A stretch of DNA of 32,356 nucleotides from Pseudomonadales bacterium (GTDB lineage Bacteria > Pseudomonadota > Gammaproteobacteria > Pseudomonadales > Azotimanducaceae). Position numbers and translations under genes: made by a program. The notes beneath the pieces are model-generated. The model was given only the letters and a program-made list of their open reading frames with translations. It was not told the DNA's origin and made no database searches. The stretch is from NCBI GenBank assembly GCA_016779385.1, contig JADHNT010000022.1:1-32356 (forward strand), read 5' to 3'. Positions 5,345 through 12,369 of this stretch are shown here, piece by piece; position 1 is the stretch's first letter; each line of letters opens with the position of its first letter.

Positions 5345-6925
5345 CTAATCCGCCCAAAGCGCCTGCAATACGGCCTCATGAAGGGAGGGCCCCAGGCCCC
5401 GCTCCGCCTCCTCGGCTTCCAGCATCAGCACCACCGCAAGGCGCCGCCCCTGGCGGGTTTGCAAAACCCCCGCAACATTCGACACCCCGGCAAGGGTGCC
5501 CGTTTTCAGGTGCGCTTGAGCCGCGAGGGGCGTGTCCTCGAAGCGGCTCCGGAGCGTGCCGTCGACTCCCGCAATGGGAAGCGCGTGCAAAAACTCCGGC
5601 ATGCGCGGAGATTGCCAAAGAAGCCGAAGCACGGCCCCCACCTGCGCCGGGCGCAGTCGATCCTCCCGAGCTAGCCCCGCGGGATGGGTGAGCACGGCAT
5701 CGCTAAGATCGACCCCGGCTGCTCCGTAGATTGTCCGTAGGGCCTGCCACCCTGCCTCTTCCGTACCGGCGCCTTCCTGCACCCGCCCGAGCGTAAGGAG
5801 CAATTGGGTGGTCATCACGTTGTTACTGCTCTTGCCTAAACGCCAAACAATTTCATCGAGGGACGGGGAAGGCTGGCGCAGCAGGCGGCCCGTTGGCGCG
5901 GGCGTTTTCTCACGCGCGCGGGGCGGAAGACGATCGAAGCTATCCGCCTCGGCCCGGGCCTCCGCCGTAAGCGCGCCCGGCGCCACATCCCCCTGCCATT
6001 GCCCCCCCAGCGCTTCGAAGAGCACGCGGAAGCGATCTCCAAGGTATCGCTCCGGAGTGAGCACGCTACGCGTGAGGGCGTAGCGCTGGCAGCCCTCGGG
6101 GAAGGTGCCCTCAAGGCGCAGCGTATCCCGGGCGGACCCCAGCACGTTGATCGCCACCCCGCGCTGGTAACCCCGGCAGGGCCCAGGCACGAGCTTCAGC
6201 CGGTTTTCGACGCGTAGGGATGGCAGCAGCGGAGACACCTGCGCCTCCACGGCGTCGGTCCCGGGGCGAAGGGCGACGGTAGCCGCGGTGAAGTTGGGCA
6301 GGAGGGCGTGAGCGGGCAGGTTGTAGAGCCTATCCCCTTGCCCATCAAAGGCATCCCGGGGTCGAGCGGTGGGAGACAGGGCACGCCCATCCACCCGCAG
6401 GGCACCCTCGATTCGGGACACTCCAGCGGCGCGAAGCGCGGAAACCAAGCGATAGAGCGCTTCGTCATTGAAGAACGGATCGCCCTCGCCCCACAGCAAT
6501 AGATCCCCCAGCAGGACTCCATCCCGTAGCGATCCTTCCGCCCAGGCCTCCGTGTGCCAGCGGAACGCCGGGCCCAGAGAAAGCAGGGCCGCGCCCATGG
6601 GGAGGAGCTTCACAAGGGACGCCGGGGGGCGCGGTCGCTCCGCCGCTTCCGCGGTCAGCACCTCGTCTCGGTCGAAATCAAACACCCAAAGGGAGGCGCT
6701 GTCCTCGGGCAGGCGCAGGCTTTTTAGGGCCCGTCGAAGGGCCTCGACCCCCGGTGCTGCGACGGCAGGCGCTTCCGGAGGCGCCGCCCCTTGAACCTCC
6801 GCGGCAAAAATGCCACTTACCAGGGAACCCTGGAGCGCAAGGAGCGTCCCTAGGATGCGGCCCCCCCACCGGCGCCGGCGCCGGAGAGCCATGCTAAACT
6901 TTTTTTCTTGATCTCGAACGGCCAT
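5345..6925 (-). CDS. dacB: D-alanyl-D-alanine carboxypeptidase/endopeptidase, PBP4 type
   Basis: 526 residues, somewhat longer than E. coli PBP4 (about 477). The start at ATG 6925 is chosen for the strong GGGAGGAG nine bases upstream; the inner ATG at 6892 lacks any ribosome site. This gives a signal peptide with a long basic N-region (ALRRRRRW) and hydrophobic core to about residue 40-45 (GIFAAEVQG). The penicillin-binding motifs of peptidase family S13 are intact: S103-x-x-K106 (PASLVK), S367-N-N369 and K474-T-G476 (HLKTGTLAG). Between the first two lies the large insert typical of PBP4. It cuts the terminal D-Ala or D,D cross-links in periplasmic peptidoglycan. It is divergent from the ABC/HlyD/TolC operon across 152 bases. 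Confidence 0.92.
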   Translation of the reverse strand: MAVRDQEKKFSMALRRRRRWGGRILGTLLALQGSLVSGIFAAEVQGAAPPEAPAVAAPGVEALRRALKSLRLPEDSASLWVFDFDRDEVLTAEAAERPRPPASLVKLLPMGAALLSLGPAFRWHTEAWAEGSLRDGVLLGDLLLWGEGDPFFNDEALYRLVSALRAAGVSRIEGALRVDGRALSPTARPRDAFDGQGDRLYNLPAHALLPNFTAATVALRPGTDAVEAQVSPLLPSLRVENRLKLVPGPCRGYQRGVAINVLGSARDTLRLEGTFPEGCQRYALTRSVLTPERYLGDRFRVLFEALGGQWQGDVAPGALTAEARAEADSFDRLPPRAREKTPAPTGRLLRQPSPSLDEIVWRLGKSSNNVMTTQLLLTLGRVQEGAGTEEAGWQALRTIYGAAGVDLSDAVLTHPAGLAREDRLRPAQVGAVLRLLWQSPRMPEFLHALPIAGVDGTLRSRFEDTPLAAQAHLKTGTLAGVSNVAGVLQTRQGRRLAVVLMLEAEEAERGLGPSLHEAVLQALWAD

Positions 6926-7077
6926 CGTTCGACGCTCCTCCCATTACCGCAACGGGCCTATGCCCGATGCGTTCGCGTCCTCCAGCGGCGCATCACAGAT
7001 TTTTACGGGGCCGCCGAGTCACCTCGCCCCCCATGCCATGGGTAGCCCCCAAAAACGGCACCCCCAAAGGAGTGATC
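6926..7077. promoter_or_regulatory. Divergent region between dacB and the exporter operon
   Basis: A 152-base gap that must hold promoters for dacB (-) and the exporter operon (+). I see no strong -35/-10 pair. A ribosome site (AGGAG, 7068-7072) precedes the exporter start. An upstream in-frame ATG at 6967 would extend the ABC protein by 37 residues that are basic and Pro-rich and unlike the family, so I treat that stretch as leader. Confidence 0.35.
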
Positions 7078-8781
7078 ATGGCACGGCAAGCGCCCTCCCT
7101 GCTGAGCGCCTTTCGCCTCGTAATCGGCGGCGAATCCGCCTTCTTCAACATGGCCGTTCTCTTCGGCGTGGTACTGAGCGGCCTTACCCTCGGCGTACCC
7201 GTGGCGGTGCAGCTTCTCATCGATTCCATTGCTAATCTTGGGTCGCTCCAGCCCGTGCTGATTTTGTCCTGCGTGCTCTTTGTGGTGCTGCTTATCGCAG
7301 GGAGCCTCGTCGCTCTGCAGAACTTCGTGCTCGAGCGCTTCGAACGGCGCTTTTATGCGCGCACGGCGAAGGAGATCACCCTGCGGACCCGCTATGCGGA
7401 CACGGAAGCCCTGGAAGGCAGTCACCGAGAAGACCTCTACAATCGCTTTTTTGAGATCGACGCCATCAAGGGCCAGGTGCCCGTACTGCTCACGACGGGC
7501 CTCAACCTCGTGCTTCAGGCCCTGGTTGGTTACGTGGTGGTGGCCTTCTACCATCCCTATTTTCTGATCGTCGGCGTTGTGCACGCGGCCTTGATCTACC
7601 TCATTTGGCGCAGCACGGACGCCGGCGCCGTGCGCGGTGTGAAGGGCCTCTCGAACGCCAAATACCGCATGGGCGCCTGGCTTGAGTCCCTGGCCCTTCG
7701 CCATCGTCTGTTTAAGTCGGAGCGAGGCCTCGGCTGGGCCACAGCGCGGACCAACGCCTTGACGGAAGACTATCTCAGCGCCCACCGAGAACACTTTCGC
7801 TACAGCTTTACCCAGGTACTTGCCTATCAATTCCTCATGGCGGCGGGCAGCGCCCTACTCCTAGGAATTGGGGGCTGGCTGGTGGTGCGAGGCCAGCTCA
7901 CCGTGGGCCAGCTCGTGGCCGCAGAACTGATCTTGGGCACGATCTTTTTGAACATGGGAAGCTTCGCCTCCGTGCTTGAAGGCTGGTACAGCCTGCGCCC
8001 CGCGGTGGAAAAGCTTGCCCAGCTCTATTTGTTGCCCCCCGAAGAACCTCACGGTACCCCTACCTTAGAAATGGCGAGCTGGGCACCTACGCTCACCTTC
8101 GAGGGGGCAAAGCTTCGCCACCGTCAGCGCACGCTCACCCTGTCGGCCCACTTCCCGGAAGCCAGCACCACCCTCGTGGCGCCGGAAACGGTGAGCGTCA
8201 CGGAAGCCTTCTGCGCCGGTGCCACCCAACTCCAGCTGCCCACCGGCGGCGCCTTGCGCTTCGGCAGCATCGACGGTGAGCGCCTACCCGCTGGGACGCT
8301 CCGAGACGAAGTCCTGGTGGTCAGCGATACCCTGCTTCTGGCCTGCTCCATTGCGGACTTCCTCCGGATCGGTAATCCCGCCCTTCCCCGGAGCGAAATG
8401 ATGAAGGCCCTGGCGGTAGTGGGGCTGGCGGAAATTGTTGAAGGGTTTCCGGAGAGGCTCGACACCCTTCTTACGCCCAGCGGCGGGCCGTTTACGACCA
8501 GTGAAGCCCTGCGCCTTAAGATCGCCCGGGCCATCGCTTACGATCCGAAGATCCTCATTCTGAGCCCCACCTGTGACCTCCTCCGGGTGGAACGGCGCCG
8601 CGCCATCGTAAAGGCCTTTAAGGATCGGAACCGCACGCTCATCGTGCTTTCTAATCGCCTAGACCTCGAGGGCTTTGATCAGTATCTCCGCCTGGGGGAC
8701 GGCTACGGACAGCGCTATGACACCCTGGAAGCCCTGCTCGACGCGGAGCACGCCGCTCACCCCGCTGGAGCCCTGCTATGA
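7078..8781 (+). CDS. ABC exporter-like membrane protein with degenerate, probably ATPase-dead nucleotide-binding domain
   Basis: 567 residues with the half-transporter layout of type I secretion exporters: six predicted membrane helices in residues 20-300 (for example FNMAVLFGVVLSGLTLGV and LAYQFLMAAGSALLLGIG), then a full-length nucleotide-binding-domain fold at about 335-545. No N-terminal peptidase domain. Every catalytic motif is replaced: the Walker A place reads VAPETVSVTE (367-376) with no GxGKS/T; the Q-loop position is S416; the LSGGQ place reads FTTSE (472-476); Walker B LLLDE reads ILILSP (S496, P497); the H-loop His is N526. Yet neighbouring fold segments remain (RLKIARAIAYDPKILIL), and there is no frameshift or stop, so it is a maintained pseudo-ATPase, not decay. 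ATG 7078 has AGGAG upstream. Its end overlaps the HlyD gene (ATGA). Confidence 0.85.
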   Translation: MARQAPSLLSAFRLVIGGESAFFNMAVLFGVVLSGLTLGVPVAVQLLIDSIANLGSLQPVLILSCVLFVVLLIAGSLVALQNFVLERFERRFYARTAKEITLRTRYADTEALEGSHREDLYNRFFEIDAIKGQVPVLLTTGLNLVLQALVGYVVVAFYHPYFLIVGVVHAALIYLIWRSTDAGAVRGVKGLSNAKYRMGAWLESLALRHRLFKSERGLGWATARTNALTEDYLSAHREHFRYSFTQVLAYQFLMAAGSALLLGIGGWLVVRGQLTVGQLVAAELILGTIFLNMGSFASVLEGWYSLRPAVEKLAQLYLLPPEEPHGTPTLEMASWAPTLTFEGAKLRHRQRTLTLSAHFPEASTTLVAPETVSVTEAFCAGATQLQLPTGGALRFGSIDGERLPAGTLRDEVLVVSDTLLLACSIADFLRIGNPALPRSEMMKALAVVGLAEIVEGFPERLDTLLTPSGGPFTTSEALRLKIARAIAYDPKILILSPTCDLLRVERRRAIVKAFKDRNRTLIVLSNRLDLEGFDQYLRLGDGYGQRYDTLEALLDAEHAAHPAGALL

Positions 8782-9848
8782 CGTCGGAATCGAGAAGGGG
8801 ATCCCTCGGCGCCGCGCCGCTGGAAGCATTCGTTGCCGAGCGCCATCGCGCAGCCTTCACGGCCCTTGCCGCTCAGCAGCTGCCCCGCCCCCTAAAAACC
8901 CTTCGCCTTTTGATCCTCGGGGCCTTGCTGCTTCTGGTCGCCTTCCTGTCCTATACCCCCTGGGTGCAAAACGCCGCTGGGGATGGCCGGGTCACGACCC
9001 TAAACCCTGCGGAGCGCAGCCAAACGCTCACCAGCTTCGCTTCCGGGCGCCTGGCCCGCTGGCACGTCCGGGACGGCAGCTACGTCAGCCAGGGCGACCC
9101 CATCGTCGACATTGTGGACATCGATCCCCAGCTCGTGGAGCGCCTCACGGCGGAGCAGCGCGCGGTCCAAGCGGCCTTCAAGGCAGCCCAGGAAGCCACG
9201 CGCACGGCGCGCCTGAATTTGGAGCGGCAGCGGCGCTTGCTGGAGCAGGGGCTCACCTCCCAGGTCGCCTTCGAACGGGCGCAAATCCTGGTTAACGAAT
9301 TGAGCGCCAAGGAAAGCGAGGCGGAGGCCTCCTTAAATCAGGCGCGGGTGGCGGTCACCCGGCAAACCACGCAGCAGGTGGTCGCGCCCCGGGATGGCAC
9401 TATCCTCGGCATTAGGGCTGGAGACATGGGTACCTTGGTCCGCGCCGGGGACGTGATCGCCGAATTCGTTCCCAAGGTCTCAAACCCCGCTATTGAGCTC
9501 TACATCTCAGGACTCGATGCCTCCCTCGTCACCCCCGGGCGCAAGGCTCGGGTGATGTTCGAGGGCTGGCCCGCGGTGCAGTTTGGAGGCTGGCCCGAGG
9601 TGGCCGTAGGCACCTTCGGCGCCGTGGTGAGCACGGTGGATCCCGTGGTCTCCCCCAATGGCCGCTTCCGCGTGCTCCTGGTCCCCGATCCCGGCGACGC
9701 GCCCTGGCCCTCCAACGCCTACCTGCGCTTCGGGGCCCAAGCCCGGGGCTGGATCCTGCTAGACACGGTGTCCGTGGGCTATGAGCTTTGGCGACGGCTG
9801 AACGGCTTCCCCCCGGAAAACAGCGTCGGGGCGGCGCCTCGTGCTTAG
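8778..9848 (+). CDS. HlyD family periplasmic adaptor (membrane fusion protein)
   Basis: 356 residues. A cytoplasmic N-terminus of about 40 residues precedes one membrane helix (LRLLILGALLLLVAFLSY, 42-59). In the periplasm come the first lipoyl half (ASGRLARWHVRDGSYVSQGD, 88-107), a coiled-coil hairpin of roughly 85 residues (RLTAEQRAVQAAFKAAQEAT onward to about 200), the second lipoyl half (VVAPRDGTILGIRAGDMGTL) and a beta-barrel region. This is the architecture of type I secretion and tripartite adaptors, with a rather short coiled coil. The ATG overlaps the stop of the ABC gene, and its 3' end overlaps the next start by eight bases, so the three proteins are translationally coupled and probably form one complex across both membranes. 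Confidence 0.9.
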   Translation: MTSESRRGSLGAAPLEAFVAERHRAAFTALAAQQLPRPLKTLRLLILGALLLLVAFLSYTPWVQNAAGDGRVTTLNPAERSQTLTSFASGRLARWHVRDGSYVSQGDPIVDIVDIDPQLVERLTAEQRAVQAAFKAAQEATRTARLNLERQRRLLEQGLTSQVAFERAQILVNELSAKESEAEASLNQARVAVTRQTTQQVVAPRDGTILGIRAGDMGTLVRAGDVIAEFVPKVSNPAIELYISGLDASLVTPGRKARVMFEGWPAVQFGGWPEVAVGTFGAVVSTVDPVVSPNGRFRVLLVPDPGDAPWPSNAYLRFGAQARGWILLDTVSVGYELWRRLNGFPPENSVGAAPRA

Positions 9849-11280
9849 ACCCCTGCTTTTTGCCCTGAGCCTAGCCTTTGCCGCGAGTGGCCCGGTCGCA
9901 GCCGCGCAGGCCACGAAGGTCCTTACCGCGCAGACCGTGCTGGCGGCTTCGGCCCGGGCCGTCCCTACAATCCTTGAAGCCCGATCCCTGCGCACCGCCG
10001 TGGTGGCCCAGCGCTTAGCTGCGGAGGGGGGGTTCGACCGCACCCTCTCCCAGGGCGCGCGACAGTGGGTATTCGGGGACTACGACGGCTTCGACGCCGA
10101 TCTAAAGCTGACCCAGCCCCTCGCCACCCTTGGTGGCGATCTCACGGCGGCCTACCGCATCAGCGACGGCAGCTTTCCCCGTTACGAAACGGAGCGCCAA
10201 ACCCTGGGCGGCGGGGAGCTTAGCCTGGGCCTCACCATTCCCCTACTCCAGGATCGCACCCTGGATGACCGGCGCTTCGCGCGGCAGGACGCTACCCTGG
10301 CTATTGCCGAGGCCGACGCCTCCCTGCTTCAAACCCAGCTCGACGTGCAGCACGATGCCCTCATCGCCTACTGGCGCTGGGTGGCCGCGGGGCGGAAGCT
10401 CGCCATCTTCGAGAAGCTTCTCGCCATTGCCGAAGAGCGAGACCAGGCCTTTCGGGCCCAGTCCGCAGTGGGGGATATCGCGGAAATCGCCGTGGTGGAA
10501 AACCAGCAAAACCTCCTGAAGCGGCGCCAGCTGGCCCGCCGGGCAGCCCGGGATTTCACCCTGGCAGCCACGGATTTGAGCTTCTTTCTGCGAGACGACA
10601 ACGGAGCCATGCAGCCCGTGGAGGCGGCCGCCCTCCCCCCGGCTTTCCCTCCCATCGCAGGAACGGAGGCTCAGCTGGCACCAGCGCGCCTTGCCGCCAT
10701 CATCGAGGCGACGCCCACGCTCCAGGCCCTGACGCAGAAGGCCCAGCGCCTGCGTCTGAAGCGAAACCTCGCCCGGAACGATCTGCGCCCGGAGCTCGAT
10801 TTTTCCCTGAAGCTGGCGAAGGATCTGGGGCAGGGACCTCGAACCTTAAATGGCAACGACGTGATTACGGGCCTCGAATTCTCCCTGCCCCTGCAGCGAC
10901 GAAAGGCCCGGGGCGCCCAGGAGGAAGCGGAAGCGGCGCTGCAGGCCGTCACCTTTCGGCAGGCACGGGAAACGGATGGACTTCGCCTAGCAATCCTTCG
11001 TCTTCAGGAGACGGTCGCCGCCGCGGCGGACTTTGCGGCCCTCGCCGATCAGGAGGCGGACGCTGCGGAAACGCTCGAGGCAGCGGAATGGGTGAAGTTT
11101 CGCGAAGGCGCAAGCAGCTTTTTTATTTTAAACGCTCGGGAAGAAAACACCGCCGATGCCAGAGTGCGAGCCCTCGATGCCCAGCTGGCCTTCCAGCAGG
11201 CCGTGGCGGACTTCGCCCTGGTCACGGCGGATCGGGGCCGCCTGGGCCTTGCTTCCCCAACCCCACCGGAGGCGCCCTAA
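9841..11280 (+). CDS. TolC family outer membrane channel protein
   Basis: 479 residues starting with GTG inside the end of the HlyD gene. A signal peptide (LRPLLFALSLAFAASGPVAAA) is followed by two similar halves rich in long amphipathic helices with Ala/Gln/Arg-rich heptads (for example DASLLQTQLDVQHDALIAYWRW and the 320-460 region with QEEAEAALQAV and LADQEADAAETLEAAE), separated by beta segments, as in the outer membrane efflux protein (OEP) repeat. It would provide the outer membrane exit duct for the ABC/HlyD complex. No lipobox is seen. Position directly after the adaptor gene makes it a dedicated channel rather than the shared housekeeping TolC. Three bases separate it from phhB. Confidence 0.88.
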   Translation: MLRPLLFALSLAFAASGPVAAAQATKVLTAQTVLAASARAVPTILEARSLRTAVVAQRLAAEGGFDRTLSQGARQWVFGDYDGFDADLKLTQPLATLGGDLTAAYRISDGSFPRYETERQTLGGGELSLGLTIPLLQDRTLDDRRFARQDATLAIAEADASLLQTQLDVQHDALIAYWRWVAAGRKLAIFEKLLAIAEERDQAFRAQSAVGDIAEIAVVENQQNLLKRRQLARRAARDFTLAATDLSFFLRDDNGAMQPVEAAALPPAFPPIAGTEAQLAPARLAAIIEATPTLQALTQKAQRLRLKRNLARNDLRPELDFSLKLAKDLGQGPRTLNGNDVITGLEFSLPLQRRKARGAQEEAEAALQAVTFRQARETDGLRLAILRLQETVAAAADFAALADQEADAAETLEAAEWVKFREGASSFFILNAREENTADARVRALDAQLAFQQAVADFALVTADRGRLGLASPTPPEAP

Positions 11281-11283
11281 GCC

Positions 11284-11574
11284 ATGCCCCTACTCAGCGA
11301 CGAAGCCCGCAACGCAGCCCTGGCGGAGCTACCCACCTGGACCCTCGAAGGCGATGGCACGGTGATCAGCCAGCGCTTTACCTTCCCGGACTTCCCCAGC
11401 GCCATGGCCGCCATGGTCCGCGTTGCCTTTGAGGCGGAAGCCCTCGGCCATCACCCGGACTGGGCGAACAGCTACAACCGCCTGGAGGTGCGCCTCACCA
11501 CCCATGACGCCGGGGGCCTCACGGAGAAGGACATCGCCCTGGCTAAGGTCTTCGAGGCGCTCTGCGCCCCCTAG
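11284..11574 (+). CDS. phhB: 4a-hydroxytetrahydrobiopterin dehydratase (pterin-4a-carbinolamine dehydratase)
   Basis: 96 residues, the normal size. The signature EALGHHPDW (52-60), with active-site H56-H57-P58, and LTTHDAGGLTEKD (71-83), with H74-D75, are unmistakable for the PCD/DCoH family. The enzyme dehydrates 4a-hydroxy-tetrahydropterin made by phenylalanine hydroxylase, a step in pterin cofactor recycling in the cytoplasm. Start ATG 11284 lies three bases after the TolC-like gene stop, so it is probably transcribed with the exporter operon although no functional link is known; a phenylalanine hydroxylase gene is not in this window. Confidence 0.93.
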   Translation: MPLLSDEARNAALAELPTWTLEGDGTVISQRFTFPDFPSAMAAMVRVAFEAEALGHHPDWANSYNRLEVRLTTHDAGGLTEKDIALAKVFEALCAP

Positions 11575-11579
11575 GCGCG

Positions 11580-11585
11580 TATACT
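11580..11585 (+). promoter_or_regulatory. Possible -10 element for the cinA-like gene
   Basis: TATACT lies 25 bases before the ATG of the cinA-like gene, immediately after the phhB stop. I find no matching -35 hexamer 15-18 bases upstream, so this is a weak call based on the hexamer and its position. Confidence 0.3.
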
Positions 11586-11610
11586 GGCGTCACGTACTCA
11601 GGGAGGTGTC

Positions 11611-12369
11611 ATGAGCTTTCAACCCGTTACCGCTTGCGTCCTTTTGATCGGCAATGAGCTCCTTTCCGGTCGAACGCAGGATGCGAACCTTGCGCACCTG
11701 GCCACGACGCTTAACGAGGTGGGCGTTTCCGTGCGCGAAGCCCGAGTCATCCCCGATGACCCCAAGGTCATCATCGAGACCTTAAACAGTGTACGGGCCT
11801 GCTTTGACTACGTGTTTACCACCGGAGGCATTGGACCCACCCACGACGACATCACCGCGGAATGCGTCGCCGAAGCCTTTGCCGTACCCCTGGTGATGAA
11901 TGAGGAGATCGCCGAGACCATTCGCGGCTACGCCAAGGTCCGAGGCATGAGCGACACTGTGCTCGCTGCCAGCCTGCGCATGGCGCGCGTGCCCCAGGGG
12001 GCACGGCTATTGCCCACGGACGTCGGCGCCCCGGGGTTTGCCATCGACAACGTTCACGTGATGGCGGGAATCCCCGCGGTGATGCAGTCCATGATCAGCA
12101 AGCTCGCCCCCACCCTCAGGGGCGCTCGCCCGGTCCGGAGCCGCAGCGTCGGTGCCTACCTCGGGGAGAGCATCATCGCCGATGCGCTGACGGCGCTACA
12201 AAACCGCTTCGACGACATCGACCTTGGGTCCTACCCCTTCAACGATGAGGGCCGCTACGGCACCACCCTCGTAGCCCGGGGCACGGATGAAGCGCGCCTG
12301 GATACGGTGCTCGATGCGCTTCGCCAGCTCATCATCGACCACGGGGCCGAGCCCCTGGCGCGAAGCTAG
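11611..12369 (+). CDS. CinA/MoaB-like molybdopterin-binding domain protein (stand-alone CinA N-terminal domain)
   Basis: 252 residues; GGGAGG four bases before ATG 11611 fixes the start. The N-terminal 170 residues are a MoCF-type domain: LIGNELLSGRTQDANL (about 11-26), then TTGGIGPTHDDIT (about 71-83), the conserved motif of MoaB/CinA, and GAPGFAIDNVHVMAGIP. The C-terminal PncC nicotinamide-nucleotide amidase domain of full CinA (total about 410) is absent; the last 80 residues (YLGESIIADALTALQNRF, YGTTLVARG) form the small middle domain. CinA-type domains hydrolyse pyrophosphate in ADP-ribose or NMN-related compounds, but for this short form the role is not settled. Its TAG stop shares CTAG with the convergent gene. 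Confidence 0.85.
   Translation: MSFQPVTACVLLIGNELLSGRTQDANLAHLATTLNEVGVSVREARVIPDDPKVIIETLNSVRACFDYVFTTGGIGPTHDDITAECVAEAFAVPLVMNEEIAETIRGYAKVRGMSDTVLAASLRMARVPQGARLLPTDVGAPGFAIDNVHVMAGIPAVMQSMISKLAPTLRGARPVRSRSVGAYLGESIIADALTALQNRFDDIDLGSYPFNDEGRYGTTLVARGTDEARLDTVLDALRQLIIDHGAEPLARS

Follow-up and report, generated by a model that had tools for sequence, protein, structure and literature searches.

An operon linking an ATPase-dead ABC exporter-like subunit to HlyD- and TolC-type partners defines a family of possible ATP-independent tripartite exporters

Introduction

ATP-binding cassette (ABC) exporters are the standard example of pumps powered by ATP, whose hydrolysis is also taken to be required for type I secretion. 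Each ABC ATP site is built from the Walker A, Walker B and H-loop of one nucleotide-binding domain (NBD) and the signature motif of the other; heterodimeric exporters with a degenerate site, such as TmrAB and TM287/288, retain one complete composite site together with the paired gene. Among tripartite pumps, EmrAB-TolC is proton-driven, and its inner-membrane part is a major facilitator superfamily (MFS) protein. SbmA combines an ABC-like membrane domain with proton-driven transport; it is an importer without NBDs and coupling helices, carries a glutamate ladder, and has been proposed to derive from an ABC ancestor by loss of the NBDs (PMC13316013). Here we describe an operon at positions 7078–11280 of a 32,356-nucleotide stretch (the window: contig JADHNT010000022.1, positions 1–32,356 of the forward strand, assembly GCA_016779385.1) from a Pseudomonadales bacterium of the Azotimanducaceae. 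It encodes an ABC exporter-like subunit with a dead ATPase domain, a HlyD-type adaptor and a TolC-type outer membrane factor. A first-pass annotation of the sequence had proposed that the ABC protein pairs with an active half-transporter encoded elsewhere, uses another energy source, or acts as a scaffold or sensor.

Results

An intact ABC gene without ATPase motifs

The ABC gene (7078..8781, + strand) is an intact open reading frame (ORF) encoding 567 amino acids, classified by Pfam, NCBIfam, profile alignment and motif scoring. Alignment to intact exporters confirmed the earlier reading that all ATPase motifs are substituted. Walker A is a degenerate APETVSVTE running from A368 to residue 376 (8179..8205), the Q-loop Gln is replaced by Ser416 (8323..8325), the signature motif reads FTTSE (F472 to residue 476; 8491..8505), the Asp and Glu of Walker B are Ser496 and Pro497 (8563..8568), and the H-loop position is Asn526 (8653..8655). 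Only one of 13 canonical positions scored is kept, namely the signature Q/E position, as Glu.

The fold around these positions has left traces. Pfam assigned ABC_membrane to the protein at 34.3 bits (cut-off 28) and gave no ABC_tran match at E up to 10. The NCBIfam HlyB model nevertheless aligns to residues 23–530 and the PrtD model to residues 23–553, and with the HlyB- and LssB-type models TIGR01846 and TIGR03375 the protein obtains 78 bits (cut-off 726) and 75 bits (cut-off 693), respectively. When a profile of 23 family members was compared with the PDB, its positions 22–559 matched residues 146–690 of HlyB chains (∼4e-38), while P-glycoproteins were the top-ranked rows, over part of the profile. 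Conversely, a profile of intact NBDs recovered two same-genus orthologues, L039 (4e-19) and L040 (1e-19). As judged by these alignments, the NBD fold is still recognisable despite the loss of its motifs. Hydropathy gave five main hydrophobic segments, one of them with length for two helices, which fits the six membrane helices first described.

Selection on the gene was estimated from pairwise Nei–Gojobori ratios of non-synonymous to synonymous substitution (dN/dS) against four same-genus orthologues that are 78–97% identical. Values were 0.049–0.090 for the membrane domain and 0.084–0.217 for the NBD, where the top NBD value comes from the closest pair, with 26 changes only, and dS exceeds 1.2 for the most distant orthologue; HlyD gave 0.084 and 0.086. 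Because these ratios lie far below 1, the ABC gene is maintained as a protein, as first supposed from its intact frame. The NBD is somewhat less strictly constrained than the membrane domain.

A family in Pseudomonadota and Bacteroidota

The protein belongs to a family of which we compared 45 members, the window's included, from Pseudomonadota and Bacteroidota; 42 were analysed first and three more (L136–L138) afterwards. A search of 97 genomes, the own genome included, found a relative at least 34% identical over all or most of the query in at least seven. The remaining matches listed were 19–34% identical and mostly partial, and where aligned (25 ORFs, including own-genome ones) they were ordinary exporters. 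Profile searches identified family-positive genomes in 9/390 of the order, 11/369 of the class and 11/398 of the phylum, in overlapping draws that each count the own genome. Members or close relatives also reside on plasmids of Sphingomonadales (15 records, four used in the comparison) and Bacteroidota (seven records, four used). Member L064 is the pNL2 copy of Novosphingobium aromaticivorans DSM 12444. Among viral contigs, 103 stretches matched the search pattern and none was a relative; in phages, the membrane domain had no match. Same-genus rows are near-duplicates in this set, L070 and L076 share one genome, and L092 is cut by a contig end.

In a membrane-domain tree of 71 leaves, 39 family members stood apart from 32 intact exporters with a support of 1.0, which became 0.95 when three Bacteroidota members were added (42 of 74 leaves family). 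The NBD tree supported the whole family at 0.71 only. Within the family, 34 members are the most degenerate, and eight basal ones (L084, L103, L085, L086, L066, L116, L114 and L115) mostly retain more motifs. The grouping of the 34 alone was weak in the membrane-domain trees (0.45–0.47) and strong in the NBD tree (0.99).

Two peculiarities of length were seen. The basal L084, L066 and L116 carry an extra N-terminal stretch of roughly 130–150 residues, in which no Pfam domain was found for L066 and L084, and the member in genome G867 (L098:1402-4335) lies in a 978-codon open frame, far longer than others, which may reflect a long open upstream stretch or a fused domain.

Loss of the ATPase motifs across the family

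We scored the 13 canonical positions in 42 family members and 32 intact exporters; 25 of the latter were family-profile or own-genome ORFs taken without a motif filter, and seven came from ten loci (L104–L113) by selection on a Walker A plus signature pattern. The Walker A Lys is present in 7/42 family members, all of them basal (seven of the eight), and the Walker B Asp in 4/42, again all basal, compared with 32/32 intact exporters in both cases. Likewise, the Q-loop Gln (0/42), the second signature Gly (5/42) and the H-loop His (2/42, with L092 ending before the H-loop) occur in all 32 intact exporters, and the catalytic Glu is found in 7/42 family members versus 30/32. The full motif set is in none of the 45 members; the best of the 42 scored, L084 and L103, reach eight of the 13 positions. 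The three later members lack the motifs as well and form the most eroded branch, with an ABC protein of 513–515 amino acids.

Walker A and signature are both incomplete in 36/42 members, including that of the window. Two members (L063 and L067) keep three of the four scored signature positions, and three others, L064, L096 and L097, are without Walker A, Q-loop, Walker B and H-loop despite an LSVGE-like signature. The partly degenerate basal members, in which the P-loop is kept and other motifs are gone, provide a natural series in which the proposed switch away from ATP could be studied. Public annotation names several members 'ABC transporter ATP-binding protein' and others 'ABC transporter transmembrane domain-containing protein'; for these proteins, the former name is misleading.

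These data bear on another explanation of the locus, decay of a gene in a single strain or a normal domain hidden by a frameshift, which the first-pass annotation had named as a refutation of its own proposal. Nothing was found in favour of this explanation. The existence of 45 members, same-genus dN/dS values well under 1 and a conserved gene order (see below) make it extremely improbable, and single-strain decay in particular is ruled out by the family members in many genomes together with the dN/dS values.

HlyD- and TolC-type partners and their surroundings

In the window, the ABC stop codon overlaps the start of the adaptor gene by 4 bases (8778..9848, +; 356 amino acids; Pfam HlyD_3), and the GTG start of the outer membrane factor gene at 9841 overlaps the HlyD stop (9841..11280, +; 479 amino acids; Pfam OEP, PF02321). 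A Shine–Dalgarno-like AAAGGAG (7066..7072, +) was read from the sequence 5 bases upstream of the ATG of the ABC gene. A scan for promoters and terminators gave signals without clear excess over shuffled sequence, and the window contains no Rfam match.

The linkage is conserved. Of 45 loci in all, three end at or near a contig edge; in the 42 with at least 1 kb downstream, HlyD directly follows the ABC gene without exception (12 of these HlyD proteins were seeds of the HlyD profile). Where the downstream sequence extends over at least 2.8 kb (32 loci), both HlyD and TolC follow in 28; seven of these TolC proteins served as seeds of the TolC profile. The assumption that TolC is always adjacent was rejected, since it was not found next door in four of these 32 loci (L076, L136, L137 and L138). 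The adaptors are 36–51% identical to that of the window beyond the genus. A search with HlyD only was positive in 14 of 369 class genomes; 11 of these are the eleven ABC-positive genomes, and in the other three (G483, G621 and G725) the more eroded ABC relative of 513–515 amino acids adjoins.

The first-pass annotation had described both partners as normal and translationally overlapping. Their kind and the overlaps stand, and the family comparison adds that HlyD belongs to a distinct, well-conserved adaptor group that goes with these systems. The homologues it called for show the same motif loss (45/45) and, with the TolC exceptions given above, the same gene order, and a homologue with intact Walker A and B in that order, an observation it had said would refute it, does not occur among the 45 family proteins.

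The genes around the operon vary between loci. When neighbours were clustered across 31 loci, several of which have short flanks, no cluster besides ABC, HlyD and TolC was shared by more than five. This result bears on the idea that the remaining NBD acts in docking or sensing and that energy is supplied by a separate soluble or membrane ATPase recruited to the complex. Such a function would agree with the purifying selection on the domain and with its family-typical residues Asp500 (37/39) and Pro471 (36/39). The clustering gave no conserved fourth gene, though, and the most eroded branch has shortened its protein while keeping the membrane residues; we regard recruitment as unlikely.

Individual neighbourhoods are recorded here in their own right. 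In the window, a divergent D-Ala-D-Ala carboxypeptidase (S13) gene (5345–6925) lies upstream, and genes for a pterin-4a-carbinolamine dehydratase and a molybdopterin-binding/FAD synthase middle-domain protein lie downstream (11284–12369), all by Pfam; the neighbours on both sides have no evident link to export. A TonB-dependent receptor gene lies no more than a few kilobases away from the exporter in 5/31 loci (cluster c3: L063, L064, L068, L069 and L070, the calls in L069 and L070 by similarity only), L114 also has one nearby, and this neighbour might hint at the substrate. In the basal locus L085 (5522-13024), ABC, HlyD and TolC follow, on the same strand, genes for an SRP54-type GTPase and for FtsE-like (ATPase) and FtsX-like proteins, probably an ftsYEX operon with the exporter downstream. 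In L136 (3543-9410), GatA-like amidase and GatB genes come after HlyD, and L137 and L138 show the same frame lengths.

The membrane domain is conserved and carries a family-specific glutamate

Conservation in the family is inverted, in that the membrane domain is more conserved than the ATPase domain. Mean pairwise identity among 23 members is 48% in the membrane domain and 32% in the NBD, in contrast to 23% and 44%, respectively, among 25 intact exporters; the intact set covers several subfamilies, and it is the contrast between domains inside each set that counts. Four membrane-domain residues are invariant in 45/45 members: Gln45 near the end of transmembrane helix (TM) 1 (codon 7210..7212), Gln147 in TM3 (7516..7518), Tyr158, and Glu283, placed in TM6 (7924..7926), with helix positions from alignment and hydropathy. 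Nearly invariant are His159, Trp201, Gln278 and Tyr304 (44/45 each), Ser192 and Gln246 (43/45 each) and Lys195 (42/45). None of the 32 intact exporters has Glu283, His159, Ser192, Lys195, Trp201, Gln246 or Tyr304 at the corresponding position, and few have Gln147 (two), Gln278 (three), Gln45 (six) or Tyr158 (seven). Six positions in residues 1–330 are at least 80% acidic in the family, and hydropathy and alignment place Glu283 alone inside a membrane helix. Even the most eroded branch, L136–L138, retains Gln45, Gln147, Tyr158-His159, Gln278 and Glu283, together with HlyD.

When 289 genomes were searched with the membrane domain only, the family stood apart from other exporters. Six family genomes, the own genome included, scored 383–428 bits, and six other genomes scored 48–80 bits. 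The exporters of the latter, kept by a Walker A pattern (each of the six loci yielded one), all show intact NBD motifs and lack Glu283, which is thus absent from 38/38 intact exporters in total. A protein combining a working ATPase with the family membrane domain was not found in this search.

Since ATPase motifs were lost while the adaptor linkage was retained, the subunit could be a gated passive conduit, or a scaffold that joins HlyD and TolC to the inner membrane, with no active transport. The polar and acidic residues that the family conserves at positions assigned to membrane helices, where the intact exporters compared rarely or never have them, suggest a transport-specific role instead, and we give the passive alternative only a small chance.

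Search for an intact ABC partner

A dead subunit might also obtain its ATPase by pairing with an intact ABC half-transporter encoded elsewhere, the first of the explanations originally offered. Degenerate sites are familiar from heterodimeric exporters such as TmrAB (PMC8277102), and possible partners exist. In all 25 family genomes searched, ABC_membrane matches number 3 to 10 and so extend beyond the family member. A PrtD- or LssB-type exporter exceeds its curated cut-off in 13/25 (seven and six genomes, disjoint). The 13 are a lower bound: the remaining 12 were searched with the PrtD and LssB models and not with HlyB, and LssB gives the C39-type exporter of the own genome just 211 bits where its cut-off is 693. 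Six of seven ABC_membrane matches in the own genome are listed, and the seventh is presumably the window's own. The six are the C39-type exporter, an adjacent pair on contig C85, and halves on C31 (near the contig end), C76 and C127, those on C76 and C127 being intact.

In 35 loci (509 kb) scanned for NBD-bearing frames, no intact ABC half was linked to it; the scan left out L095–L103 and L136–L138, and two of its loci (L039 and L040) repeat L090 and L089. Apart from the family members, the scan met FtsE (L085), an ABC-F protein (L076) and, where L082 ends, a truncated fragment of an ABC ATPase, and no ABC_tran was among the matches listed on the window's contig. The own-genome C39-peptidase exporter, which has ABC_tran (L117:2405-5695, contig C120), adjoins a HlyD gene of its own and constitutes a separate system. 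The other ABC_membrane frames of three family genomes (G226, G352 and G817) have 588–616 amino acids and none is of the 700-residue type, although G352 also has a 218-residue PrtD-like fragment.

Moreover, because it lacks both Walker A and signature, the window subunit would complete neither composite site with an intact partner. On the motif evidence, this argument counts against a catalytic heterodimer for the 36/42 members in which neither element is complete. It does not cover the three with an LSVGE-like signature, which a partner could use (3/42), three basal members with Walker A, or a structural heterodimer. Taken together, pairing with an active half is poorly supported, and we consider it quite improbable; the genome search for an intact half that the first-pass annotation had suggested yielded those on C76 and C127. 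Another energy source, its second proposal, is better supported, if indirectly.

Discussion

Because relatives in distant bacteria have lost the same motifs, an energy source other than ATP is probable for these pumps. In the mechanism that we favour, and to which we give nearly an even chance, the operon would encode a homodimeric, ATP-independent tripartite exporter spanning the inner membrane, periplasm and outer membrane. We infer that its inner-membrane part descended from type I secretion-like ABC exporters and turned ATP-independent; the channel through the inner membrane would be made of two ABC-like subunits that dock onto the HlyD adaptor and the TolC duct, and substrates would move outwards. 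The proton gradient would drive transport via Glu283 in helix 6 with its polar companions Gln45, Gln147 and Gln278, and the leftover NBD would serve as a structural or regulatory module. Proton coupling would be the most likely alternative energy for two reasons: a charged residue is fixed in a predicted membrane helix in just those proteins that have lost the ATPase, and in SbmA a membrane domain of the ABC type is driven by protons.

Several points weigh against this mechanism. The support for proton coupling through Glu283 is indirect, and the residue could instead serve gating or contact with HlyD. Its placement in a helix relies on alignment and hydropathy, because a structure model built from five alignment rows had a mean predicted local distance difference test score (pLDDT) of only 37, and intact exporters beyond the 38 compared may have a Glu at this place. 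ATP may not have been abandoned throughout the family: the basal L084, L103 and L115 retain 4/4 scored Walker A positions and may bind nucleotide, L064, L096 and L097, which are among the 34 most degenerate members, keep 4/4 signature positions (SVGE after Leu or Phe), so that some signature function may persist, and the PrtD- and LssB-type exporters noted above are candidate partners in 13 of the genomes. The parallel with SbmA is imperfect as well. SbmA is described with a ladder of several glutamates, compared with one conserved membrane candidate here, and it imports, without NBD or coupling helices, whereas in the present family an NBD-like domain is kept under selection. Finally, no substrate was identified, and no dedicated search was made for a linked protein with a C-terminal secretion signal.

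If the proposed mechanism is right, a channel, an adaptor and an outer duct can work together without a functional ATPase, and the energy source of this architecture is exchangeable. The family may then represent a second, independent transition from ABC transporter to secondary transporter after that proposed for SbmA, made in Pseudomonadota and Bacteroidota by an exporter that spans the envelope, with a Glu fixed in helix 6 and the dead ATPase domain kept; this we advance tentatively and at somewhat less than even confidence. All component parts are of known kinds. Among the titles and abstract openings listed from the open-licence literature, none describes their combination in an ATPase-dead exporter family linked to HlyD or to HlyD and TolC.

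How, then, does this operon compare with the systems that it resembles? With type I secretion ABC exporters (HlyB/LssB, TIGR01846, TIGR03375), it shares the ABC-like membrane domain, an NBD-like domain, a HlyD-type adaptor alongside (42/42 loci) and, in most loci, TolC (28/32). It departs from them in that no functional Walker A/B, signature, Q-loop or H-loop set exists in any of the 45 members and in the family residues Gln147, Lys195, Trp201 and Glu283, of which Lys195 and Trp201 are not universal (42/45 and 44/45). Substituted catalytic positions are common to TmrAB and TM287/288, but no linked partner gene was found in the loci scanned here, and the window protein is without Walker A and signature. 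Like SbmA/BacA (SLiPT), the family has an ABC-type membrane domain that, as proposed here, would work without ATP, and a conserved membrane glutamate. SbmA/BacA is not known to have HlyD or TolC partners, whereas such partners belong to the system described here. EmrAB-TolC is likewise a three-part exporter spanning the envelope and, on our proposal, shares with the present system its energy from protons; the inner-membrane part here would, however, be an ABC descendant rather than an MFS protein.

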